Part shown: piece by piece, positions 5,982-30,728 of the stretch
Layout: every line of letters begins with the position of its first letter
Numbering within the stretch: the first letter of the stretch is position 1
Assembly: GCA_026706845.1 (NCBI GenBank)
Contig: JAPOXY010000030.1
Location: 1 to 45,902, forward strand
Length of the DNA: 45,902 nucleotides
Source of the DNA: Gemmatimonadota bacterium
GTDB taxonomy: Bacteria; Latescibacterota; UBA2968
Direction: 5' to 3'
The notes under the pieces: model-generated
Database searches by the model: none
Told to the model about the DNA's origin: nothing
What the model saw: only the letters and a program-made list of their open reading frames with translations
Program-made: the position numbers and the translations under genes

Positions 5982-6581
5982 ATGAATGTGGCAGTGATTG
6001 GCGCAGATCGCCCCTGGGGTGCGCTGCTGGCGACGGGGTTGGGCGCGGGGTTTGAGGTGGTGGCGATTGGTTCGGAAGATGCCCGTGATTTTGCCGGGTA
6101 CCGACAGGTTGATTTGCTCCAGCGAGAATCGGTAGATCCGATGCTGGCGGGCGTAGAGGCTGTTGTGTACGCGGCGGCCAGCGATCCAATAGGGGATAGC
6201 GAGCAGGTTTTGCTCGACGTAGCGGCGCGGGGGACTTATGTGGCGCTGACGGCTGCCTGTGCCGCCGGTATTGAGAAGGTGGTGTTGTTGAGTTGTCTGG
6301 ATTTGGTGCGGGATTATCCGGAGGAATATATCGTTGATCCGCGGTGGAATGCGATACCGCGAGCAGAGGCTGAGGCACTGGCACCGTTTATGGCTGAGCT
6401 GGTGGGGCGGGAGATTGCGCGCACGGGTCAGATTGAGGTGCGTTGTTTGCGCCTTGGTGCGCCGGGTGTGGAGACTATGGCGGAGGATGCGGTGACGGCT
6501 GTGCGCGATGCGCTTATAGCCGAGCGCGAGGGGCACCACTGGTCGCTGTCGCATGTGGCGTCGAGTGGGCGTTTTGCTTGA
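5982..6581 (+). CDS. NAD(P)-binding epimerase/dehydratase-like protein (atypical SDR)
   Basis: A 199-residue Rossmann-fold protein starting MNVAVIGADRPWG, a variant of the GxxGxxG dinucleotide-binding loop, and followed by DLLQRESVDPML and VVYAAAS, the usual second and fourth strands of atypical extended SDRs. The YxxxK catalytic pair is not obvious, so enzymatic activity is uncertain. It is shorter than typical extended SDRs. It starts directly after the TnpB element and is followed after ten bases by a second SDR gene, suggesting co-transcription. Confidence 0.65.
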   Translation: MNVAVIGADRPWGALLATGLGAGFEVVAIGSEDARDFAGYRQVDLLQRESVDPMLAGVEAVVYAAASDPIGDSEQVLLDVAARGTYVALTAACAAGIEKVVLLSCLDLVRDYPEEYIVDPRWNAIPRAEAEALAPFMAELVGREIARTGQIEVRCLRLGAPGVETMAEDAVTAVRDALIAEREGHHWSLSHVASSGRFA

Positions 6582-7441: not shown

Positions 7442-9931
7442 TCATTCATGCCGCAAGGCCTCTATTGGATTTGCCTGAGCTGTTTTGATGACCTTATACG
7501 CTACTGTTATTGTTGTCAGGACAACCATACACACACCACCTACTAAAAACGGCAGTGCCGAAATCTCAATGCGATAGGCAAAATTCTGTAACCATTCATT
7601 GGTTGCCCAATAGGCAATCGGCCATGCCAATAAACAGGATACCAATACCAGGCGAATAAACTCTTTCAAGAACAGCCCTACAACAAGACCTGCAGATGCA
7701 CCCAACACCTTGCGAATACCCACTTCCTTTTTGCGCTGTTCGGTCAAAAATGAGACCAGCCCCAATAGGCCCAGACACGCAACAAAAATAGCCAGAGCAG
7801 CAAAAACGCTCATCGCGCGGCTCAACTGTCGCTCCTGGGTATATTGCTGATTCAGATTGTCATCCATAAACGTGTAAGCAAAAGGGCGAATCGGCAAAAA
7901 ATGTTTCCATACCTTTTCCATGTGTGCAACGGTTTCATCGAAATTATGAGGGCTTACCTTTAGATAAAGTGTCTTGGGTACCGCGTTGTTCGCATATAAA
8001 ACCATAGGGCCAAGCGGCTCGTGCAATGTGCGCGCGTGAAAGTCTTTAACCACGCCTATAACACGCCCTGGTCTTCGTCCCTTCACACCAAATGGTTTGC
8101 CAATGGGGTCTGCCCAATCCAGCATTTTAACAGCGGTTTCATTGAGAATGTATTCTGCCTGACCGTGAACCTTCAATTGCTCCAACTGATCTCGGGGCAC
8201 AAATGATTCCGAATCATACCTTTTCGCTGCGTCTTCTGAAAAGTCTCGACCCGCAACAAGTTCAATATTGAAGAAACTCAGAAAATCTTCATCCACTTCA
8301 TTCCTGCCCATACGCAATTCTTCTTTGCCCGGTTCATAAGCACTAAAAGTCGCTTGTGGCGCAGTGCGTCCGTGTGAAGAACGCGCAATTGTTGCAGCCG
8401 TAATATTGGGATGCTGCAAAAACACATCTTTGACAACATTGTACCGTTCCCACAAGCGATCTTCACGCAAACGAGAATTGCGAGACTCCCACAAAAGACG
8501 GGACTCAATAACGTACTCTTTGTCAAATCCCAGATCTTTGTTTTGGATATACGACATTTGATTAAACACAACCAATGTGATCACAATCAGTGCAATAGAT
8601 GTACTAAACTGAAAAACCACCAGCACTTTGCGCAATAACCTACCGCGAGCACCTGCTGCGAGTGTGCCTTTGAGCACTTCAACAGGCCGAAATCGCGATA
8701 AAAGAAATGCTGGATAAATCCCCGTAATAAGTCCTGTTATCAGAGATAATCCAACCAGAGCAAGTGCCATATTGCCCGTGATATCCAATGTCAAAGAATT
8801 ACCCGTATAGTCGTTGAAATGTGGTAAGAAATCAGAAATAACAACTAACCCCACAATCAAACTCAATACAGAGAAAATCACCGACTCGGCCAAAAATTGC
8901 AAAGCGAGTTGTCCTCGATGCGCGCCGACCACTTTTCGCAATCCCACCTCGCGTGCCCGGTTAGCTGATCGGGCTGTGGTCAAATTGATGAAGTTGATGC
9001 TCGCAATTAAAAAAATGAGAATGGCTGTAGCAGATGCAGCATAAACATGTGCAATATTGCCATGTATCACTGGCCCTTGAATGTCGAATACGTCCTGAAG
9101 TCCATAATCGCGTCTCGAGTACAAATGCACTTCATCCATGGGCTGGAAGTGATACGTCGTGCGTGCTACCATTTCCGGTCCCATATACTGTTCCACCATC
9201 GCGGGTATTTTTAAAGCCAATTTTTCAACTGACGTGTTTTCTTTTAACCGTACGTGGACCGTGATTCCGCCTCGCCAATGTGCTGTTGGCAAATAGGCAT
9301 TCCAGTATCGAGAAAGAAAAGCAGGCCAGACAGAGGCTGAAAGCATATCAAAACGAATCGAAGATCGCCTGGGCAAATCTTTAAGCACACCCGCGACAGT
9401 ATAATCGCCCCCGATATAGGCCCCTTCGACCGTAAGCACTTTGCCGATGGGGTCTTGATCGCCAAAATAATCGCGTACCATAGACTCGGTGATAAAAACA
9501 GAATTATGCTGTAAAAGAGCAGACTTGTCACCCTGTATTATTGGAAAGTTGAATACATCCAGGCAATTCGGGTCCGCGAGACAAAATACCCGATTCAAGA
9601 CTGTCTCTTTATGCTGCACCCAGGCTTGGCGAAGCATTGTGCGTGTGGAGATTTCAACTTCGGGGAAATCGCGTGCCAAAGTGGGGCCAATTGCCCCCGA
9701 AATGCGCCAGTCGTATGTTGTCTGACCATTTTCTGATCGATACTCACCAATGATTCGATACAAGCGATCTGCATGCGGATGTTGTGTGTTAACAGCCAAT
9801 TCGTTTTGTACAAACAGACCGATCAAGATGACACACCCGATGCCAATGCCCAGCCCGATAACATTGATCGCTGAGTACATTTTGTATTTGAGCAAATTGC
9901 GAATCGCGATGACGAGATAGTTTTTGAACAT
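7442..9931 (-). CDS. ABC transporter permease, FtsX/MacB double-permease type (copy 1)
   Basis: An 829-residue membrane protein with SD AGAGGA before ATG. One N-terminal TM segment (about residues 20-42) is followed by a large extracytoplasmic MacB_PCD domain, three TM helices, a short TM plus a second extracytoplasmic domain, and three final TM helices. The conserved cytoplasmic coupling motifs EVGLRKVVGAHR and EVGIRKVLGAS would contact an ATPase subunit. These type VII transporters export peptides or lipoproteins or transmit force to the envelope; they are not classic importers. No ATP-binding gene is nearby. It ends the tandem array of three and starts 52 bases after the previous gene. Confidence 0.9.
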   Translation of the reverse strand: MFKNYLVIAIRNLLKYKMYSAINVIGLGIGIGCVILIGLFVQNELAVNTQHPHADRLYRIIGEYRSENGQTTYDWRISGAIGPTLARDFPEVEISTRTMLRQAWVQHKETVLNRVFCLADPNCLDVFNFPIIQGDKSALLQHNSVFITESMVRDYFGDQDPIGKVLTVEGAYIGGDYTVAGVLKDLPRRSSIRFDMLSASVWPAFLSRYWNAYLPTAHWRGGITVHVRLKENTSVEKLALKIPAMVEQYMGPEMVARTTYHFQPMDEVHLYSRRDYGLQDVFDIQGPVIHGNIAHVYAASATAILIFLIASINFINLTTARSANRAREVGLRKVVGAHRGQLALQFLAESVIFSVLSLIVGLVVISDFLPHFNDYTGNSLTLDITGNMALALVGLSLITGLITGIYPAFLLSRFRPVEVLKGTLAAGARGRLLRKVLVVFQFSTSIALIVITLVVFNQMSYIQNKDLGFDKEYVIESRLLWESRNSRLREDRLWERYNVVKDVFLQHPNITAATIARSSHGRTAPQATFSAYEPGKEELRMGRNEVDEDFLSFFNIELVAGRDFSEDAAKRYDSESFVPRDQLEQLKVHGQAEYILNETAVKMLDWADPIGKPFGVKGRRPGRVIGVVKDFHARTLHEPLGPMVLYANNAVPKTLYLKVSPHNFDETVAHMEKVWKHFLPIRPFAYTFMDDNLNQQYTQERQLSRAMSVFAALAIFVACLGLLGLVSFLTEQRKKEVGIRKVLGASAGLVVGLFLKEFIRLVLVSCLLAWPIAYWATNEWLQNFAYRIEISALPFLVGGVCMVVLTTITVAYKVIKTAQANPIEALRHE

Positions 9932-9983: not shown

Positions 9984-12371
9984 TTACTCCTGACGGAGCA
10001 TTTTAACCGGGTCTTCAGACCAGGCTTTGCCAGCTTGATAGCCCACGATTAATAGGGTGACAATGATGCCTGAGACTGCTCCGATAATAAAAACGACCAC
10101 GCTCTGATTTATTCGGTATGCAAAATTTTGTAGCCATTGCTCCCCGGCATAATAAGCGAGGGGAAGTGCCAACACATAAGCGATCGCGATTAACTTCAGA
10201 AACTCTTTTGAAAGCAATGTGAAAATATCTGCGAGATTCGCACCCAGTACTTTGCGGATTCCAATTTCTTTGATTCTTTGTTCAACACTGAAATTTGCAA
10301 GGCCAAATAGTCCCATACAAGCGACAAAAGAAGCGAGAAGCGTGAAGATTTCAAGGACATTGAATATGTTGATTTCCTTTAGATAAGATCTTTCGAGGTT
10401 TTCGCTTAGAAACGCGCTGTCAAAAGGCCGGTTAGGGATGAATTGCTTCCACTTTGACGCCATGAAATCTATTGTTGATGAGACGTTCTCCCGTCCAATT
10501 TTGACTGATAGCCAATTCCATTGTGTCTGCCACTTGCATATAAAAATTGGCTCTATTTCTTCATGGAGAGACAGCAGATGAAAATCGCGCACGACCCCAA
10601 TTACTGTTCCACGACGATTATTAAGAAGCCAGGTAAATTGCTTTCCAACAGGATCTTTCCATCCGAGTTGTTTAACAGCCGTCTCGTTGAGAATAAATGC
10701 TTCAAAAGAATCGCTCGCAATATCCTTATTCAGATTTCTTCCAGCTATCACATCGATTTCGAATGTGTCCAAAAAATCTTCATCTACTACCAGATGCCTC
10801 ATTCTGACCTCTTCGCCATCAATTCCTTCTGGAATGACAAGCTCACGTCCTCCGTCATACCCGAATGTGATTTGAGATGCAGTTGCACGGTGAATATTGG
10901 GATGCTTGAGAAATTCCTGCTTGATCAATTCATACTTAATGGTGAGAGAACGGTCTGTTGCAAATAGCGGCATCATGACTACCATTTCTTCGTTGAAGCC
11001 AAGTTTTTTGTTTTTGATATAATTCAGTTGTTGATAGACCACGCCAGTGCAAATTATGAGGGCAATAGACACACAGAATTGAAAGACGATCAGGACTTCT
11101 CGCATGCGAACACCTTTTAAGGTGTGTGAGTACTTGCCACCTAATACCTGTATGGGTTGAAAACTTGAGAGAAAGAAAGCGGGATAGCTTCCAGCGATGA
11201 AACCCATCAGCACGGTAAGGATGATCATTATGAGAAGTTCAGAGACGCCAAAACGCAAGTCAATGCCCACAAATTGTTCAAATGCTGGCAGGACAAGTTC
11301 AATCAGTGAAATGGAAAAGAGCAAAGACAGGAGTGATATGAATAGCGATTCACTGAAGAATTGACTGATTAATTGACCTTTGTGTGCGCCGACAGTCTTG
11401 CGAATGCCCACTTCTCTTGCCCTTTTGGCTGAACGCGCTGTTGCCAAATTCATAAAGTTCGCACAAGCGATGAGGAGAATCAACGCACCGATCGCAGAAA
11501 ATAAATAGACATAGGTAATGTCTCCACCGTCTGTTATACCGTAGTCTGAATATGAGTAGAGATAGATCCGGCGAAAAGGTTGCAGGTGATACGTTGTGTT
11601 TGCACGCGTTTCGAGGTCAAAATAGCGGGTGGTAAAATCCGGCAATTTGCGCTCTAAATCAGCAGGAGAAGTGCCTTTGGAAAGCAATAGATAAGTTTGG
11701 ACAGGGCGAAAGGAAGATTTACGCCATCTTTCCCAAACCGCATGCATCAGTGGTAAAGAAGGAACAGTAAACGTCAGAATGTCGAATTGAAGTGTTGATT
11801 GACTCGGCAAATCTTTTAAGATGCCTACAATCTCATAATCTCCTCCCGTGTAACGACTTTCTACAGTAATTACCTTGCCGATAGGATTTTCATTACCAAA
11901 ATATTTTCGTGCAGTGGATTCTGTAACGACTACAGAAGAAGGGTGTTTCAGAATAGCTTGATGATCGCCCTTCAGGAACGGAAATGTGAATACATTGAAA
12001 AAACTATCATCGGCAACACAGAAGTTCTCTTGGAATCCCTTATCTTTGTACCGAACCCACGCATTACGGGTAAAAATTCGGGTCATCGTCTCGATTTCGG
12101 GGAAGTCGGCTTTGAGAGCAGGGCCTAAAGGTCCCAGGGTGCCATAATTGAAGTAGGAATCTCCAGTCGTTTTGTTTTTGACCTGTCTCAATACCCTGTA
12201 AATGCGGTCTCCGTTGAGATGGTGTTGATCGTATTTTATCTCATGCTGTATCCACAGGAGGATTAGGCCACAGCTCGTCAGGCCTACCGATAGTCCGACT
12301 ACGTTAATCAGTGAATAAAGCCTGTGATTGCGGATGTTTCGTATGATTATGGTGAGATAATTTTTCCACAT
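9984..12371 (-). CDS. ABC transporter permease, FtsX/MacB double-permease type (copy 2)
   Basis: A 795-residue permease with the same architecture as its neighbours: TM1, MacB_PCD domain, three TMs, second extracytoplasmic domain and three TMs. Coupling motifs are EVGIRKTVGAHKG and EIGIRKVLGANL. The start MWKNYLTIIIRN is chosen because it aligns with MFKNYLVIAIRN and MFENYLKVAVRN of the paralogues. An upstream ATG at 12491 overlaps the previous stop as ATGA, but it would add 40 unlike residues read through repeat R1. The SD is weak. It is about 116 bases behind the upstream permease, so co-transcription is likely. Confidence 0.9.
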   Translation of the reverse strand: MWKNYLTIIIRNIRNHRLYSLINVVGLSVGLTSCGLILLWIQHEIKYDQHHLNGDRIYRVLRQVKNKTTGDSYFNYGTLGPLGPALKADFPEIETMTRIFTRNAWVRYKDKGFQENFCVADDSFFNVFTFPFLKGDHQAILKHPSSVVVTESTARKYFGNENPIGKVITVESRYTGGDYEIVGILKDLPSQSTLQFDILTFTVPSLPLMHAVWERWRKSSFRPVQTYLLLSKGTSPADLERKLPDFTTRYFDLETRANTTYHLQPFRRIYLYSYSDYGITDGGDITYVYLFSAIGALILLIACANFMNLATARSAKRAREVGIRKTVGAHKGQLISQFFSESLFISLLSLLFSISLIELVLPAFEQFVGIDLRFGVSELLIMIILTVLMGFIAGSYPAFFLSSFQPIQVLGGKYSHTLKGVRMREVLIVFQFCVSIALIICTGVVYQQLNYIKNKKLGFNEEMVVMMPLFATDRSLTIKYELIKQEFLKHPNIHRATASQITFGYDGGRELVIPEGIDGEEVRMRHLVVDEDFLDTFEIDVIAGRNLNKDIASDSFEAFILNETAVKQLGWKDPVGKQFTWLLNNRRGTVIGVVRDFHLLSLHEEIEPIFICKWQTQWNWLSVKIGRENVSSTIDFMASKWKQFIPNRPFDSAFLSENLERSYLKEINIFNVLEIFTLLASFVACMGLFGLANFSVEQRIKEIGIRKVLGANLADIFTLLSKEFLKLIAIAYVLALPLAYYAGEQWLQNFAYRINQSVVVFIIGAVSGIIVTLLIVGYQAGKAWSEDPVKMLRQE

Positions 12372-12382
12372 GGTAAGACCCC

Positions 12383-12438
12383 GTTGACAAATCATTGGAA
12401 AGCCCTTAGTGATATGCAATATGAGATCAGTTCCCACC
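12383..12438. repeat. Dispersed repeat R1 (degenerate copy)
   Basis: Lies between two permease genes. GTTGACAAATCATTGGAAAG, CCCTTAGTG and GCAATATGAGATCAGTTCCC align with R2 (18515-18588) and R3 (21252-21325). It lacks about seven bases in the middle and the AACTGG arm of the hairpin seen in the other copies. Confidence 0.7.
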
Positions 12439-12487
12439 ATTAAATCGGGGAACTTCAGTTTGAATGACAACAGCAACTCAGAAGTAA

Positions 12488-14899
12488 TCATTTATAACGC
12501 AAATGATGAATGGGATTTAACAGAGCAGTTTTTAGGGTATGATAGACGATGGTAAGCAGGGCTATCATCAGGGATATTCCGCCACCCAGGATCAGCGTTA
12601 TAAGATCCACATGAACGCGATAATGAAAATCCTGCAACCAGGCCTCCATGACGAAAAAAGCTATGGGCCAGGCAATGATGTTGGTCAATAAAATGAGTCC
12701 TAAAAAATCCCTCACGAGCAACCACCAGATGTTGAACTTAGAAGCTCCCAGTACCTTTCGGATACTCATTTCGTGGGTGCGATACTGCACGGTAAAAGCG
12801 GTTAGTCCAAATAAGCCCAGACAGGCTACAAAAATTGTAAGCAGTGACACTAATCGGAGCATTTTTTCTAATTTTATCTCAGCCTCATAATTCCATTTAT
12901 CTATGTTTTCATCTAAAAAATGAAAATTGAAGGGGAAATTTGGGATTAGTCGTTTCCACTGGTTTTCCACGAATTGGATCGTGTTGGCAATATTATCTTT
13001 TCGAATTTTGAGGGAGAGATAATTCCATTTGGGAACCCACATGCAGACGAAAACAGGTCCTATTTTTTCGTGCAAAGATAGCAGATGAAAATCCTCGACA
13101 ACGCCAATCACTTTTCCGGGCCTATCATTCCACTCAAACTGTTTGCCAATTGGCTTCTCCCAACCCAGTTGTTTGACCGCCGTTTCATTCAGGATATAGG
13201 CATTTGTGGTGTCGCGTCCAATATCGCTTGAGAAATTTCGGCCTTCTTTAACTTTGATGTCAAAAAAGTTCAGAAAGTCCTCATCAGCAGCCAATATATT
13301 CATCTCCCAACCATCCGAATTACTTCCTTCTGGATAAACCACCCAGCGCTCTCCCCACCCAATATTGGGCAATGTATGAGAAGCCGTTGCCGCCAATATA
13401 TCTGGATGTTTTATAAATTCCTGGTGTATTGCACGATAATTGCTCGTCAATGATCGATCTGTCATGTATAACTCCAAAATCATGACCTGATCTTTATTGA
13501 AACCGAGGTCTTTATTTCTCATGTACTTCATTTGATTAAAGATGGTTATCGTGCCGATGATACATATAACCGAAATTGAGGATTGAAAAATCACCAATCC
13601 CTTTCGGAATCGGGCGTTGTTTTTAGTAGAAACTAATTTACCTCCTTTGAGAATATCCATAGGCTCAAAGGCAGATAAAACAAAAGCAGGATAAATTCCA
13701 GAAAATAGCCCGACCAATACCGTAATGCCGGATAATCCGACCAATAGAGATCCGTTCTGAATATTTAGTGACAATGCCTTAAGTGTAAAAGCATTAAAGG
13801 TAGGCAGGAAAAGCTCGACAAAACTCAATGCCAACAAGAGGGCGAGCAATGATAGCAGAAAGGATTCTCCCAAAAATTGCACAATCAATATCCGCCGATT
13901 AGCACCTACCACTTTCCGCATACCTACTTCCATTGCCCTGGTGGTGGCGCGTGCTGTAGCGAGATTCACGAAATTGATACCGGCAATGAGTAAAATAAAA
14001 AAGGCAAGTGTAGAGAGTAAGTAGATATACGAGATGTCGCTATACATGGTCATACCGTAATCTACGTTAGAATAGAGGTGGATACGATCGAGCGGCTGCA
14101 GGTGATAGACATTGTTTGATTGGATTTCCTCGCCCATATAACGAAGCATAAAATCGCTCAATTTTTGTTCCAATTCGGAAGGTGGATACCCTTCTTGTAG
14201 CAAAATAAAAGTTTCTATTGGCAGCCAACCACTCTCGCGCTGCCATCTTTCCCACACAGTGCCAGCAAACTCTTTTTGTCTCCATTCTGATGATGCAGAC
14301 GAAGCGAGAAAATCGAATTGAATTGTCGAATTTATTGGTATATTTTCCAGGACACCTGTGATTTTGTAATCCCCTCTAAAATATCGGTGTTCAACGGTGA
14401 TTGTTCGGCCTATGGGATTTTCGTCAGGGAAGAATTTATTCGCCATTTCCCGGGTGAGAACAATGGTATAAGGTTCCACCAGAGCTGTCCTCGGATCGCC
14501 TTTTATGAAAGGAAAGGAGAAGATTTCAAAGATTTTAGAATCGGTCATCATAAATTTTTGTTTAAACCATTTGTCTTTATAGTTTATCCAGGTATCAATG
14601 TCCCAGGTCCGGACAGCACTTTGTATTTCTGAAAAATCTTTCAGCAGAGACGGTGCAAGCGCACCTGAAGTGCCCGGATGCGTCTGGGATTCGCCACTAT
14701 TGGCTTCCCTTTCTCTCAGCACCCGGTAAATGCGATTGCTTTTTTCGTGGAACTGGTCATACCCTATTTCATCCTGTATATACAAAAAAACCAAAATACA
14801 ACAGGCCATCCCGATAGCTAAACCACTGATATTCAGGAATGAAAACATCTTAAATTTAATCAGGTTTCGAACTGCAACTTTTAGATAGTTTTCAAACAT
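12488..14899 (-). CDS. ABC transporter permease, FtsX/MacB double-permease type (copy 3)
   Basis: An 803-residue permease beginning MFENYLKVAVRNLIKFKMF, with AAAGGA six bases before ATG. TM1 is around residues 20-40, followed by the MacB_PCD domain, three TMs (about 285-430), a second periplasmic domain and three C-terminal TMs. Coupling motifs are EVGMRKVVGANRR and EMSIRKVLGASK. It is the first gene of the minus-strand array and lies downstream of the predicted sigma-54 promoter at 15090-15105, so it heads that transcription unit. No cognate ATPase is adjacent; one encoded elsewhere would be required. Confidence 0.9.
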   Translation of the reverse strand: MFENYLKVAVRNLIKFKMFSFLNISGLAIGMACCILVFLYIQDEIGYDQFHEKSNRIYRVLREREANSGESQTHPGTSGALAPSLLKDFSEIQSAVRTWDIDTWINYKDKWFKQKFMMTDSKIFEIFSFPFIKGDPRTALVEPYTIVLTREMANKFFPDENPIGRTITVEHRYFRGDYKITGVLENIPINSTIQFDFLASSASSEWRQKEFAGTVWERWQRESGWLPIETFILLQEGYPPSELEQKLSDFMLRYMGEEIQSNNVYHLQPLDRIHLYSNVDYGMTMYSDISYIYLLSTLAFFILLIAGINFVNLATARATTRAMEVGMRKVVGANRRILIVQFLGESFLLSLLALLLALSFVELFLPTFNAFTLKALSLNIQNGSLLVGLSGITVLVGLFSGIYPAFVLSAFEPMDILKGGKLVSTKNNARFRKGLVIFQSSISVICIIGTITIFNQMKYMRNKDLGFNKDQVMILELYMTDRSLTSNYRAIHQEFIKHPDILAATASHTLPNIGWGERWVVYPEGSNSDGWEMNILAADEDFLNFFDIKVKEGRNFSSDIGRDTTNAYILNETAVKQLGWEKPIGKQFEWNDRPGKVIGVVEDFHLLSLHEKIGPVFVCMWVPKWNYLSLKIRKDNIANTIQFVENQWKRLIPNFPFNFHFLDENIDKWNYEAEIKLEKMLRLVSLLTIFVACLGLFGLTAFTVQYRTHEMSIRKVLGASKFNIWWLLVRDFLGLILLTNIIAWPIAFFVMEAWLQDFHYRVHVDLITLILGGGISLMIALLTIVYHTLKTALLNPIHHLRYK

Positions 14900-15089
14900 T
14901 GCGAATCCTTTCTTATTCTATCAAATCGATCAGAAACGGTGTGTCACACTATTGAATTTTCACCATTGTTCGATTCTCCCGGCAAAAAACCTCCAACTTG
15001 CATATGCCACAAATGGAAGAAGATGGCGGTTTTTGCATTTCTATTTTCTTATAGGCAACCACAGTAGTCTCAGGATTACCTATTTTTAA

Positions 15090-15105
15090 AGCAAAAATTA
15101 TGCCA
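15090..15105 (-). promoter_or_regulatory. Sigma-54 (RpoN) -24/-12 promoter for the permease array
   Basis: The minus strand reads TGGCATAATTTTTGCT, matching TGGCAC-N5-TTGC(A/T) with the correct ten bases between GG and GC. Transcription would start near 15079, giving a leader of about 180 nt before the ATG at 14899. Two dyads sit 64-102 bp further upstream, where an NtrC-family activator would bind. Confidence 0.65.
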
Positions 15106-15168
15106 AAGAATCAAATATTGATATTACAATAGGTTACGGAAAATCGCCTGAAATTGATGTCTTAAAAA

Positions 15169-15207
15169 GTGTTCGATTTTGATACAGTGGTGTCCGAAAA
15201 TGAACAC
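15169..15207. promoter_or_regulatory. Two tandem enhancer-like dyads (candidate EBP binding sites)
   Basis: Site 1, GTGTTCGATTTTGATACA (15169-15186), and site 2, GTGTCCGAAAATGAACAC (15190-15207), share GTGTyC-N6-GAwaCA. Their starts are 21 bp apart, two helical turns, so two dimers would lie on the same DNA face. The outer AGTGTTC and GAACACT also form a longer inverted repeat. Site 2 ends five bases before the SD of the HAD gene, so it could also affect that gene. Confidence 0.5.
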
Positions 15208-15222
15208 TGATAGGAGGGGATC

Positions 15223-15921
15223 TTGCGAATTTCAGCGATTTCTTTTGATGGCGATATGACCTTGTGGGACTTCTATAAGGTCATGCGACATTCGTTAACG
15301 CATACATTGCGGGAATTGCGCCAGCATGTTTCGACCCAGCGCGCTTTAGACCTTACTGTTGAGGATATGATTGCGATTCGCAATCGGCTTGCTGAGGAAG
15401 TGAAAGGCGAGGTCTGGAATCTCGAGGAGATCAGACGGCTGGCATTTGAGAAGACGCTTGAATATGTTGGATATCCGGACAGTGATCTGGCCATGCATCT
15501 CAATAAGATATATCTGAAGCATCGTTTCGAAGATATTGAGTTGTATAAAGATGTTGAACCTGCGCTTGATATTTTGGCATCTTATTTCAAGATCGGGCTT
15601 TTGTCAAATGGGAACAGTTACCCGGAACGCTGTGGTCTCGCAGGTCGTTTTGACTTTGTTGTCCTTGCCCAGGATGTACGTGTTGCGAAGCCTGATCGAA
15701 GAATTTTTCAGATTACCGCACAAAAGGCGTGCTGTCCGCTGGCGCGGCTATTACACGTCGGAGATTCCCTGGAACAGGATGTTGCAGGTGCAGGTGCAGC
15801 CGGAGCGCATACGGTCTGGCTAAATCGCGAAGGTCTGACAAATGATACGGGGATCAAAGCGGATTACGAGATCAGTTCATTGACTGACCTCTCCGCGATA
15901 TTGGAGGTAGGTCGAAACTGA
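15223..15921 (+). CDS. HAD-superfamily (HAD-IA) hydrolase
   Basis: A 232-residue protein. The start is TTG (MRISAISFDGDMT) with a strong AGGAGGGG SD four bases upstream; the ATG at 15200 is in another frame. HAD motifs in order: FDGDMTLWD (I, nucleophile Asp), LLSNGN (II, Ser), VAKPDRRIF (III, Lys) and HVGDSLEQDV (IV, acidic pair). The four-helix cap lies between I and II. Such enzymes dephosphorylate small metabolites; the substrate is unknown. It is flanked by the enhancer-like dyads and followed by a terminator, so it forms a single transcription unit. Confidence 0.88.
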   Translation: MRISAISFDGDMTLWDFYKVMRHSLTHTLRELRQHVSTQRALDLTVEDMIAIRNRLAEEVKGEVWNLEEIRRLAFEKTLEYVGYPDSDLAMHLNKIYLKHRFEDIELYKDVEPALDILASYFKIGLLSNGNSYPERCGLAGRFDFVVLAQDVRVAKPDRRIFQITAQKACCPLARLLHVGDSLEQDVAGAGAAGAHTVWLNREGLTNDTGIKADYEISSLTDLSAILEVGRN

Positions 15922-16051: not shown

Positions 16052-16091
16052 CTGTATTGTAGATATTACTGATACATATAGGGAGTTGATT

Positions 16092-18488
16092 ATGCTCAAG
16101 AATTATCTGGTAGTTGCACTTCGTCATCTTTGGAGACAAAAAGTCTATTCCTTCACGAATATCCTCGGTCTGGCAATAGGGATTGCCTTTTGCATTTTGA
16201 CCTTTCGGTACATTCACAATGAGTGGACATACGATACATTCCACGAAAATCTGGATCGAATTTATCGTGTCTATGAGATTAGAAAGAACCCTAATGGCGA
16301 AATAAGAAATTCTGCACGCGTTCCAACGCCCTTGGCAGCTACATTAAAGCGCGATTTTCCCGAAATAGAAAAAGTCGCGAGATTTAGAGAGGAAAAAAGT
16401 GTTGTAAAATATAAAGACAAAATGTTTGTAGAAAATATGCTCTTTACAGGTCCTGATGTTTTTGAAGTCTTTTCATTTTCCCTTTTGAATGGAGATAAAA
16501 CAGCCCTCCATAATAGATCCTCAATAGTCATTAGCCGAAGGATGGCTCATAAGTATTTTGATCGAGAAAATCCGATTGATAAGACGCTCGCTGTGAGGAT
16601 AAACGCAGAGTATATCGATTTTGTGGTAAAAGGTGTCGTATCGGAGATACCTGAAAATTCGAGCTTAAAATTTGATTTTCTTTTGCCATCTGAAATGCAG
16701 CCAAATTATGAGAGATATGCTGACCTGTGGGGGAGTTCCAGAGTTGTCTCATACGTACTGCTATCGGAAAATGCCAATCCTTTGCAACTTATCTCAAAAT
16801 TTCCCGAGTTTATACAAAAATACTATCAATCAACTATTCAAAAATACCAGGAATACGATGCACTGGCTTTAAGTGATGATGCGCTTCAATTGGATTTACA
16901 GCCATTTCACGATGTTCACTTGAATTCAGACATCCTGGGCGGATTATTGCCAACTGGAGACAGAATATTCTCATTTGTACTTCTTGGAATCGCTCTTGGT
17001 GTTCTACTGGTTGCCTGTATCAATTTTGCCAATATTTCTATGGCTTTAGCCTCTACTCGTATTAAAGAAATAGGTATGCGTAAGGTTGTGGGAGCAGAGA
17101 GATTGCAACTTATGCAACAATTTTGGGGAGAGGCACTGTTATTAAGTCTTATTGGACTATTTGTCGGAATTGCATTCTCAGAACTTGCTCTGCCTCTTTT
17201 TAATAGTGTCGCCAATAAAGAACTGACCTTGGACTATGGTAGTGAAGTGATGGCTTCTCTTGTTCTTCTATCTATTCTTGTTGGCATAATTGCTGGCAGT
17301 TATCCTTCGATCGTTTTGTCCGGGTATTCTCCAATTCACACACTCACAGAGAGTTTGAAATCTGGCGGCTCTAATTTTTTCAGTAAAGCTCTGATAACGA
17401 CCCAATTTTCGGTATCAATATTTTTAATCATTTTTGCGATTGTCACCTTTAGACAGATAGATTATTTGAAAACAAAAGATCGGGGTTTTCAAGACGAACA
17501 AGTCGTGGTCATTGATGCATCCCAACCGAATAAGGGGCAAAGGTCAGATGTTTATACGATTTATAAATCTGAATTATCCCGTTACCCCAGTGTTCTGGGT
17601 ATTACGGCATCTTTTGTCCACTTTGGAGGATTAATTTGGACGACGAACGTTAAGTGCAAGGGGTCTGTGATTGAGGTCCAATTTTTCGATGTTGCGCCCA
17701 ATTTTATTGAAACGCTTGGAATCGAATTAAGTGAAGGAAGGGGATTTATTCAGGATTCGAATTCAGATTTACATGGAAGTATTATTGTAAACGAGGCATT
17801 GGTTAGAGAGTTTGGATGGGCATCGCCTATAGGTAAAATGCTTCCGGAATTTAGCAATAGACAAATTGTAGGTGTTGTCAAAGACTTTCATTCCCGCTCT
17901 CTGCACCATCAGATTGAGCCTGTTGTGTTCGAGTTGGGGCGTCCCGACCAATACCAATATATTTATGTGCGGATCAATCCTGTAGAAGTTCAACATACTT
18001 TGAATCTACTGAAAAAAAAGTGGACAGAATTGAATCCGCATATCCCGTTTCAATTCTCTTTTCTTGACCAGGACCTGGATAGCCAATATCGAGCGGAAGA
18101 ACGCTGGGGAAGGATAAGTAGATCAGGTTCTCTATTTTCAATATTTATTGCCTGTATTGGAATCTTTAGCCTTGCTGCTTTAGCTATGAACAAACGGGTA
18201 AAAGAGATAGGCATCCGTAGAGTTCTTGGAGCATCAATTTGGAATGTTGTATTTTTATTCTTTAGAGGGTATGTAAGGTTGGTTGTGGTGGCTAATCTCT
18301 GCGTATGGCCAATTGCCTATTATGCTGTAGGGCAATGGTTAAATGATTTTGCATACCATATATCTTTTCCAATTTGGGCGTTCGCCGTCAGTGGATTCCT
18401 GACACTTTGTGTTACCCTTTTAACGGTGAGCTATCACGTTTTGAAAGCTGCGCGTTCGAACCCTGTGGATGCGCTTCGGTACGAATAA
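16092..18488 (+). CDS. ABC transporter permease, FtsX/MacB double-permease type (copy 4)
   Basis: A 798-residue paralogue of the three minus-strand permeases, starting at ATG (MLKNYLVVALRHLW) with GGGAG six bases upstream; an in-frame TTG two codons earlier lacks good spacing. TM1, MacB_PCD domain, three TMs, second extracytoplasmic domain and three TMs are recognisable. Coupling motifs are EIGMRKVVGAERL and EIGIRRVLGASIW. It is more divergent than copies 1-3 in its periplasmic domains. The gene is alone in its orientation, and no ATPase is adjacent. Confidence 0.9.
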   Translation: MLKNYLVVALRHLWRQKVYSFTNILGLAIGIAFCILTFRYIHNEWTYDTFHENLDRIYRVYEIRKNPNGEIRNSARVPTPLAATLKRDFPEIEKVARFREEKSVVKYKDKMFVENMLFTGPDVFEVFSFSLLNGDKTALHNRSSIVISRRMAHKYFDRENPIDKTLAVRINAEYIDFVVKGVVSEIPENSSLKFDFLLPSEMQPNYERYADLWGSSRVVSYVLLSENANPLQLISKFPEFIQKYYQSTIQKYQEYDALALSDDALQLDLQPFHDVHLNSDILGGLLPTGDRIFSFVLLGIALGVLLVACINFANISMALASTRIKEIGMRKVVGAERLQLMQQFWGEALLLSLIGLFVGIAFSELALPLFNSVANKELTLDYGSEVMASLVLLSILVGIIAGSYPSIVLSGYSPIHTLTESLKSGGSNFFSKALITTQFSVSIFLIIFAIVTFRQIDYLKTKDRGFQDEQVVVIDASQPNKGQRSDVYTIYKSELSRYPSVLGITASFVHFGGLIWTTNVKCKGSVIEVQFFDVAPNFIETLGIELSEGRGFIQDSNSDLHGSIIVNEALVREFGWASPIGKMLPEFSNRQIVGVVKDFHSRSLHHQIEPVVFELGRPDQYQYIYVRINPVEVQHTLNLLKKKWTELNPHIPFQFSFLDQDLDSQYRAEERWGRISRSGSLFSIFIACIGIFSLAALAMNKRVKEIGIRRVLGASIWNVVFLFFRGYVRLVVVANLCVWPIAYYAVGQWLNDFAYHISFPIWAFAVSGFLTLCVTLLTVSYHVLKAARSNPVDALRYE

Positions 18489-28228: not shown

Positions 28229-28274
28229 GTCAGCGATCAGCAGTCAGGAAAACAAGCTATCAGTGGTCAGCTTT
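28229..28274. repeat. Dispersed GTCAGC/GATCAGC-type repeat fragment
   Basis: GTCAGCGATCAGCAGTCAGG (28229-28248) and AGCTATCAGTGGTCAGCTTT (28255-28274) are degenerate copies of a short CAGC-rich unit just downstream of the thioredoxin gene. It looks like a dispersed intergenic repeat. Confidence 0.5.
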
Positions 28275-28304
28275 AATCGAAAGGCATTTGTAATGGAGAA
28301 ACCG

Positions 28305-30728
28305 ATGCGTAAAACGATTCTGTTTATCTTATCGACATTCGCGCTTTTGATATATCCGATGTCTCTTTTGGCGCAGAATAGCTTTTCCGTTTCGGTAGAT
28401 GTAAATGGTGCGGCGGGAGACCAGGCGGTCACGTCCCTCAATGTGTCCGCGGATCAGGTTATTGCCATTCAGATATTTGGCACAGGTATTCAGAATGCGA
28501 ACGGCCTTGCTGCGCGCTTTGAATACGATGCCGCGCAGGTTGTGTATGAGGGGTTTGAGGTAGGCGATGTGTTGCCCAATGCTCAGGCTCTCCCAGAGCA
28601 AGGTACAGGTTTTGTCGAAATAGGCATTGCATCTCTGGGTGGTCAAGCAACTGCCAATAGCGGTCTGGTGGGTACAGTTCGCTTTCGCACAACGGCTGGA
28701 TTTTCAGGCACGGCGATTCGGCTGGTGCGTGCAGAACTCAGTCGGGATGGGCAATTTGAGACTGTGAATCTGGATATTCGCATTGCGTTACAGTTTCAAG
28801 CCGTTACATCGGACTTCGACGGAGATGGTGTGGTTAATTTTTCCGACTTTTTGGCGTTTGCGGGTCAGTTTGGGGCACGTCAGGGGGATGGGAGATATGA
28901 AGCGAAGTACGATTTGGACAGCGACGGCGCGATTGACTTTGGCGATTTTCTGCTCTTTAGCAGTAGCTTTGGCAAAGAGGTATCTACGTCTAACGATGGT
29001 GGCGGTGGAATGGAAACGCCGGTTGCCATTCCGGATGCGAATCTGCGCACAGCAATCGAGTTCGCACTGGGTAAGGCGAGTGGTGCGTCGATCAGCAGGG
29101 CAGAGATGGCGATTTTGACAAGCCTTGAGGCATCGACATCGGATATTCGCGATTTAACCGGACTCGAATTTGCAACTGGTCTGACATCGCTGAACCTTTC
29201 CGCTAATATCATCACAGACCTCACACCTCTATCGGGCTTGACGAACCTGTCAGTGCTGATTCTTTCCGATAATAGTATCTCGGACCTCACACCTCTGTCG
29301 GGCTTAACTAATCTGACAACGCTGAATCTTTCCTATAATACCATCATAGATATCTCGCCGTTGTCGGGCTTGACGAACCTGTCAGTGCTGATTCTTTCCG
29401 GCAATTTCTTCTCAGATATCTCGCCGTTGTCGGGTTTGACCAATCTGATAACGCTGAATCTTTCCTATAATAGTATCTCAGATATCACACCTCTATCAAG
29501 CTTAATCAACCTGTCAGTGCTGTTTCTTTACGACGATACTATGATCAGGGACAGGTCAGTACTGGCGCGTCTGTCCAACCTGTCAGAAGCAGATATACCG
29601 GATGCCAACTTGCGTGCGGCGATTAAGACCGCTATGGGCAAGGCATCAGATATCCCGATCACCGATTTTGAGATGGCATTTTTGTCAGAACTTGAAGCTC
29701 CGAACGCGAACATCAGGGACTTGACCGGGCTTGAGTTGGCAACCAGTCTGACGAGTTTGAACCTCGGCACAGAATTTGTGTCTCGTGTGGGGTATGTTAA
29801 TAGTAACCATATTTCCAATTTCTCGCCTCTATCGGGCTTGACCAGCCTGACAAGGCTGGATCTTAGCGGCAACTCAATTTCAGACCTTTCTGCACTATCG
29901 GATGCCATATCGGGCTTGACCAGACTGGAACGGCTGTATCTTGACAACAACGGCATCTCGGATGTGTCTGCACTCTCAGGATTTACCAGGCTGGAACGGC
30001 TGATTCTTTTCAACAACAGCATCTCTGACCTCTCGCCCCTGTCCGGTTTGACCAATCTGGAACAGTTGTATCTTGAAAACAACAACATCTCGGATGTGTC
30101 CTCACTGTCCGGTTTGACCAATCTGGCATGGCTGGGGCTTTCCGCCAACAACATCTCGGATGTGTCCTCACTGTCCGGCTTGCCCAATCTGATACGGCTG
30201 TTTCTTCGCAGCAACAGCATGTCGGATGTGTCCTCACTGTCCGGCTTGACCAGCCTGCTATCGCTGACTCTTGACAACAACAACATCTCGAACATCACAC
30301 CTCTGTCGGGCTTGACCAGCCTGACCTCGCTGACTCTTGCCAACAACAGCATCTCGGATGTGTCCTCATTATCCGGCTTGACCAGCCTGATATCGCTGTT
30401 TCTTTACGGCAATAACATCTCGGATATATTTGTACTGTCCGGCTTGACCAGCCTGAGGTCGCTGTCTCTTTCCAGCAACAACGTCTCGGATCTTTCGCCC
30501 CTGGTCGCAAATACGGGATTGGGCAGTGGAGATCAGGTTGATGTACGGAATAATCCGTTGAATACTACATCAATCAATGCGCATATTCCAACCCTTCAGA
30601 GCAGAGGAGTTGAGGTGCGCTTTGGCGCGTTGAAGCCCGCAGTGGCGAAGATAGAACAAGACATTTCCCGCGAGATGATGGAATTGTTGGGGATTGAGGA
30701 ATGGGAGGGTGTGATCAACTCAAAATGA
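28305..30728 (+). CDS. Secreted cohesin-like/dockerin/leucine-rich-repeat protein
   Basis: An 807-residue exported protein starting MRKTILFILSTFALL with GGAGA six bases before ATG. After the signal peptide comes a cohesin-like beta-sandwich (about residues 25-180), then two dockerin-like repeats (DFDGDGVVNFSDFLAF, DLDSDGAIDFGDFLLF). Two blocks of 22-residue LRRs follow, each opened by a cap (IPDANLRTAIEFALGKA, IPDANLRAAIKTAMGKA); the repeats have the form SDxSxLSGLTxLxxLxLxxN. The C-terminus NPLNTTSINAHIPTLQSRGV is a typical LRR end cap. The likely role is extracellular recognition or scaffolding. It is followed by a strong terminator, so it closes this unit. Confidence 0.88.
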   Translation: MRKTILFILSTFALLIYPMSLLAQNSFSVSVDVNGAAGDQAVTSLNVSADQVIAIQIFGTGIQNANGLAARFEYDAAQVVYEGFEVGDVLPNAQALPEQGTGFVEIGIASLGGQATANSGLVGTVRFRTTAGFSGTAIRLVRAELSRDGQFETVNLDIRIALQFQAVTSDFDGDGVVNFSDFLAFAGQFGARQGDGRYEAKYDLDSDGAIDFGDFLLFSSSFGKEVSTSNDGGGGMETPVAIPDANLRTAIEFALGKASGASISRAEMAILTSLEASTSDIRDLTGLEFATGLTSLNLSANIITDLTPLSGLTNLSVLILSDNSISDLTPLSGLTNLTTLNLSYNTIIDISPLSGLTNLSVLILSGNFFSDISPLSGLTNLITLNLSYNSISDITPLSSLINLSVLFLYDDTMIRDRSVLARLSNLSEADIPDANLRAAIKTAMGKASDIPITDFEMAFLSELEAPNANIRDLTGLELATSLTSLNLGTEFVSRVGYVNSNHISNFSPLSGLTSLTRLDLSGNSISDLSALSDAISGLTRLERLYLDNNGISDVSALSGFTRLERLILFNNSISDLSPLSGLTNLEQLYLENNNISDVSSLSGLTNLAWLGLSANNISDVSSLSGLPNLIRLFLRSNSMSDVSSLSGLTSLLSLTLDNNNISNITPLSGLTSLTSLTLANNSISDVSSLSGLTSLISLFLYGNNISDIFVLSGLTSLRSLSLSSNNVSDLSPLVANTGLGSGDQVDVRNNPLNTTSINAHIPTLQSRGVEVRFGALKPAVAKIEQDISREMMELLGIEEWEGVINSK

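Follow-up and report, generated by a model that had tools for sequence, protein, structure and literature searches.

A sigma-54 promoter with a 39-bp double-dyad enhancer ahead of three large MacB/FtsX-type permeases and its probable shared regulon in Latescibacterota

Introduction

Promoters of the NtrC-family (bEBP)/sigma-54 type combine a -24/-12 element, tandem dyads located 100-120 bp upstream in helical phase, an IHF-like site, and an activator built of receiver, AAA+, and Fis-type domains. Sigma-54 control has also been associated with COG0577 (FtsX/MacB-like) permeases, for which a COG enrichment was described in 2025 in Gammaproteobacteria, Opitutia, and Bacteroidia (PMC12316311); neither an enhancer nor a cognate activator for these permeases was found in the text of that study, where Latescibacterota are unmentioned and only activators with the GAFTGA motif were kept. 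Two further families, ADOP (TIGR03434) and DarB (NF038008), comprise proteins of about 800 aa with two MacB_PCD and FtsX halves, mostly without an adjoining ATPase gene. In the Bce modules (BceAB-BceRS), finally, an FtsX-type permease is paired with a kinase lacking a sensor domain, and the transporter itself acts as the sensor (PMC10314905).

The locus analysed here belongs to a latescibacterotal genome and shares features with each of these systems. It has all the named parts of NtrC-family promoters and differs from them in a 39-bp asymmetric double dyad that is, by pattern, essentially confined to Latescibacterota, and in an activator candidate (K) carrying GAFTDA, which would fail the filter of the 2025 survey. 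With the COG0577 cases it has sigma-54 control and the permease class in common, and with ADOP and DarB the size, the duplicated halves, and the usual lack of a neighbouring ATPase gene. It resembles Bce in joining FtsX-type permeases with a kinase that seems to lack a sensor domain, their physical coupling being putative here, and differs from it in the output, since K is an NtrC-type and not an OmpR-type response regulator, in the duplicated-half permeases, in the HlyD adaptor present in some operons, and in the Gram-negative lineage. In the literature no report was found of this enhancer, of its activator, or of a sigma-54 regulon in Latescibacterota. What is new is thus the enhancer together with its likely activator and the regulon it heads; sigma-54 control of the permease class has been reported, by enrichment, for other phyla.

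Promoter and Enhancer Architecture

The window, that is, the whole stretch of 45,902 nucleotides analysed, is contig 30 of a 5.46-Mb assembly in 279 contigs. The original prediction had placed an exactly spaced -24/-12 element on the minus strand about 180 bp ahead of the first permease, and this was borne out: TGGCATAATTTTTGCT lies at 15105-15090 (minus), fits TGGCAY-N5-TTGCW, and shows the 12-bp distance between GG and GC that sigma-54 needs. According to the -12 spacing the transcript is predicted to start at 15079, and the ATG follows 180 bp later at 14899, which leaves a putative 5' untranslated region at 14900-15079 (minus). No sigma-70-like promoter, which had been named as a competing explanation, was seen in 14880-15240.

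Further upstream the enhancer occupies 15169-15207 (minus) and reads GTGTTCATTTTCGGACAC-CAC-TGTATCAAAATCGAACAC. Dyad 1, GTGTTCATTTTCGGACAC (15190-15207, minus), is centred at about -119.5 and dyad 2, TGTATCAAAATCGAACAC (15169-15186, minus), at about -98.5 from the predicted start; they are 21 bp apart and lie 64-102 bp upstream of the sigma-54 element, exactly as had been proposed. Read toward the permease they are GTGTTC-N6-GGACAC and TGTATC-N6-GAACAC (GGACAC at most other sites), so the dyads of the predicted consensus GTGTyC-N6-GAwaCA stand while its right arm, GAwaCA, fits one of them only. Between enhancer and promoter a candidate IHF/HU bend site, TAACCTATTG, is located at 15127-15136 (minus).

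Statistics confined to the window are uninformative for both elements: the sigma-54 pattern with one mismatch gave 2 matches vs 3.3 expected, and the dyad pattern with two mismatches 5 vs 4.5. Because these matches do not exceed chance, the question was put to the whole genome. There TGGCAYN5TTGCW has 58 matches vs 2 for its reversed control, and GTGTYCN6GAACAC has 8, all of them the identical 18-mer GTGTCCGAAAATGAACAC that dyad 1 represents, vs 1 in the control; a dyad variant on C52 forms a ninth enhancer promoter. The nine enhancers, oriented to their genes, have AAGTGTTCATTTTCGGACACCACTGTATCAAAATCGGACACTT in common. A sigma-54 element on the correct strand follows at 101-103 bp from the enhancer start in seven of the eight identical-dyad sites and in the C52 variant, while the site on C267 has an imperfect sigma-54-like element 201 bp downstream, likewise in its orthologues. 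This C267 locus (L184) belongs to a set with L125, L137, L157, and L164, where a perfect enhancer stands some 190-203 bp from a sigma-54-like TGGCACGATTTTTGTT or TTTTCGCT, an arrangement conserved in orthologues.

The bend site recurs as well: TAACNNNTTG is found at -31/-32 from TGGC in 8/8 promoters of the genome, the IHF score of these promoters exceeded 500/500 shuffles, and four HU/IHF-family genes are present. The sigma factor itself, whose absence would have contradicted the prediction, is encoded on C43 as a 496-aa frame (PF04552, E 1.9e-58) with visible RpoN box and region I. According to these data 15090-15207 is almost certainly a sigma-54 promoter with its enhancer, and the proposed NtrC-family architecture gains support from the recurrence of dyad and sigma-54 element, from rpoN, and from a likely NtrC-type activator.

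Permeases and Other Members of the Regulon

Three large permeases follow the promoter on the minus strand. Permease 1 (12488-14899, 803 aa) has a duplicated MacB_PCD and FtsX organization by Pfam; permease 2 (9984-12491) overlaps it by 4 bp as an ORF of 835 aa, where the domain position suggests a true start about 40 codons inside the frame; permease 3 (7442-9931) has 829 aa. Their MacB_PCD and FtsX domains assign them to the MacB/FtsX superfamily, and the model of permease 1 (pLDDT 85) has YbbP, MacB, and LolCDE as nearest folds. The scores of 278-297 bits against ADOP (cut-off 622) and of 109-134 bits against DarB (cut-off 700) indicate proteins that, by sequence, are related to these families and are not members of them. 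On the plus strand the window encodes a fourth large permease (16086-18488) without an enhancer, separated from the enhancer side by a HAD-like hydrolase (15223-15921), and a leucine-rich-repeat protein with a dockerin-like match (28263-30728).

In the genome as a whole MacB_PCD occurs in 47 frames, of which 34 are permease frames of 780-900 aa, many of them paralogues, and about 17 of these 34 fall within same-strand runs headed by an enhancer, the operon limits being predicted. The check proposed along with the original prediction succeeded, since the same dyad and sigma-54 element precede other permease arrays in this genome and in relatives. The targets are diverse: on C100 permeases, an ECF sigma factor, a thioredoxin-like protein, and a DarD/LolD-like ATPase; on C189 an ABC ATPase without an adjoining permease; on C141 a propeller lipoprotein and then two permeases; on C85 permeases, TPR proteins, and methyltransferases; on C11 a TPR/GWxTD protein. 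Overall the targets comprise permeases of about 800 aa, DarD/LolD-like ATPases, HlyD-type adaptors, and an ECF sigma factor. In the related genome G039 (L291) several are lined up in the order enhancer, sigma-54 element, ECF sigma factor, HlyD adaptor, ATPase, permease, and the enhancer precedes an ATPase again in G026 and G027. It is very likely, only slightly less so than the promoter assignment, that about nine operons under one enhancer form a shared regulon.

The permease substrate could be a toxic peptide, a peptide of the cell's own, or lipoproteins, and here the strongest alternative arises: with the same promoter mechanism, the permeases may serve routine export of self-made lipoproteins or RiPP-like peptides and not defence or stress. 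The single operon of adaptor, DarD-like ATPase, and permease in G039 points in this direction, as do DarD as the best profile for the ATPase of the own genome, the below-cut-off matches of the permeases to DarB and ADOP, and the near folds LolCDE and YbbP; against it, the lack of a periplasmic domain in the kinase and the large number of parallel permeases would suit a peptide-resistance module as well (PMC10314905). Routine export is a serious possibility, somewhat short of evenly balanced.

Candidate Activator

The cognate activator that the prediction called for is very likely K (L274:9148-10530), an NtrC-family protein by its receiver (PF00072), Sigma54_activat AAA+ (PF00158), and Fis-type HTH (PF02954) domains. 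Downstream of it lies the gene of a histidine kinase that appears to begin with a hydrophobic hairpin and to lack a periplasmic domain; by reading, its two hydrophobic segments are about 5 residues apart, and a hydropathy scan called both helices in two homologues only. Each of the 11 genomes of the genus has K, full-length and 87-100% identical in ten, and as a 96% identical fragment in the own genome, where it is cut at the edge of contig C167 and does not adjoin an enhancer.

The adjacency is found in genomes of several families. The K gene of G022, G023, G024, G026, G048, G051, and G003 is transcribed away from a permease, adaptor, or ECF-sigma operon, with an enhancer variant in the gap some 100 bp ahead of a sigma-54-like element; this layout recurs in G056 with weaker dyad variants. 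In G026 (C317) two complete enhancers 122 bp apart (L273:6083-6121 and 6205-6243) lie between K and an ECF sigma gene, at a promoter with an imperfect -12. Over 64 genomes of the phylum enhancer and K occur both in 21, enhancer only in 3, K only in 8, and neither in 32 (Fisher p = 2e-7, uncorrected for phylogeny). For two of the eight K-only genomes the missing enhancer pattern is explained by a contig end at K or close to it.

The main caveat for K as an activator is its loop L1. Receiver Asp, Walker A, Walker B, and HTH are intact in 12/12 orthologues checked, and in the same 12/12 L1 reads GAFTDA in place of GAFTGA; the family placement of K rests on its domains, and activation of sigma-54 by K is a prediction. 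Single changes in GAFTGA mostly reduce or abolish activity, as noted by Francke et al. (PMC3162934). GAFTSA, however, is present in other activators of the two genomes, several of which have sigma-54 sites directly downstream, so that position 5 of the motif seems to be tolerant in this lineage.

A second alternative accepts the shared enhancer and assigns it to one or more other activators among the roughly 20 strong Sigma54_activat genes of the own genome. It draws on this number, on the lack of adjacency between K and an enhancer in the own genus, and on three enhancer-bearing genomes (G020, G025, and G027, one enhancer each) where no K orthologue was recognised. K, however, is the only activator seen next to the enhancer, and this in seven or eight genomes from several families; the promoters that directly follow the genes of many other activators carry different sites. 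This explanation is therefore improbable. Around the 51 public enhancer loci described below no activator genes were found within the flanks examined. From adjacency and co-occurrence, K is in all likelihood the cognate activator of the enhancer.

Propeller-type activators of about 1000 aa (Reg_prop, AAA+, and HTH) were also considered as enhancer binders and rejected, as those checked have downstream sigma-54 sites without the dyad, some with other palindromes. Such proteins of 1000-1100 aa, mostly with GAFTSA, are numerous (L186:1574-4774, L188, L189, L110, L201-L212), and several have sigma-54 sites directly 3' and some palindromes of their own. A second, different enhancer family is seen at L065 (C37:2222) and L101 (C148:22942), where 2-3 TGTTTCATTTGRAACA-like palindromes repeated in tandem at a spacing of 21 bp lie 93-135 bp upstream of TGGCACGSTTTTTGCA and precede an integrase-like and an ATPase-like gene. 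Elsewhere (L005/L105 on C174, L008/L117 on C233, L194, and L197) large activators ending in NITHTARELGMTR have sigma-54 sites behind them, together with short ORFs of 62-64 aa (MAT..LINGT..); at L194/L197 the next protein has a GGEPLLNF stretch resembling that of radical-SAM maturases, possibly marking a sigma-54 peptide-maturation cluster.

Conservation and Distribution of the Enhancer

A scan of 257 Gb of genomes with the 39-bp pattern returned 51 copies, nearly every one from a Latescibacterota MAG; the stretches are titled Latescibacterota or Latescibacteria and a few Poribacteria, Gemmatimonadota, or Ekhidna. The Ekhidna match (L160) was set aside as contamination or chimera, as it ends right after the enhancer, lacks a sigma-54 element, and agrees at its start with a latescibacterotal site. 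Of the 64 genomes examined for the phylum, 13 contain the strict pattern, among them every one of the 11 in the genus, and 24 a looser version. The own and related genomes together yield 67 distinct sites, a set that includes orthologues and is not independent. A sigma-54 element follows within 320 bp downstream in 58 of these and at 101-103 bp in 57; in none is it upstream of the enhancer or on the opposite strand. The IHF-like motif TAAN4TTG is present in 56 of the 67 vs 2-3 in control segments.

That the element is merely a mobile repeat, or was copied with duplicated genes and has no regulatory role, is highly improbable: its copies are indeed numerous and near-identical (mean identity 90% over nine) and many of the permeases are paralogous, but the flanks are unrelated (26.5% in the preceding 100 bp or so, 35% in 20 bp shortly after the enhancer), the genes downstream are non-homologous (permeases, the C189 ATPase, the C141 lipoprotein, the C11 TPR/GWxTD protein), offset and strand relative to the sigma-54 element are fixed, and the variants keep half-sites and the spacing of about 100 bp across families.

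Proposed Mechanism and Significance

The preferred reading, a sigma-54 operon of three large permeases switched on by K through the dyads within a shared regulon, is considered very probable. Sigma-54 RNA polymerase would be held in a closed complex at -24/-12 until the membrane histidine kinase, responding perhaps to an envelope or peptide-related stimulus such as the envelope or antimicrobial stress of the original prediction, phosphorylates K; phosphorylated K would bind the two dyads about 100 bp upstream, a bend by IHF or HU at the IHF-like site would carry its AAA+ ring to the polymerase, and the ring would open the promoter. With this enhancer-promoter pair repeated ahead of about nine operons, one signal would induce the whole dispersed regulon of orphan permeases, ATPases, adaptors, ECF sigma factor, and lipoproteins, and the LolD/DarD-like ATPases could assemble with the orphan permeases and serve them in trans. 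A more speculative and rather doubtful extension is that a Gram-negative phylum has a Bce-like sensing loop whose output runs through sigma-54: the sensor-less kinase would read the working state of dispersed orphan permeases sharing ATPases in trans, and one GAFTDA activator with one enhancer would amplify the set.

In summary, these observations give Latescibacterota a concrete and testable regulon with enhancer, promoter, likely activator, and targets. Orphan duplicated permeases become tied to ATPases by shared control, which offers an answer on their energy source. Activators with GAFTDA or GAFTSA, discarded by GAFTGA-filtered surveys, may be real sigma-54 activators.
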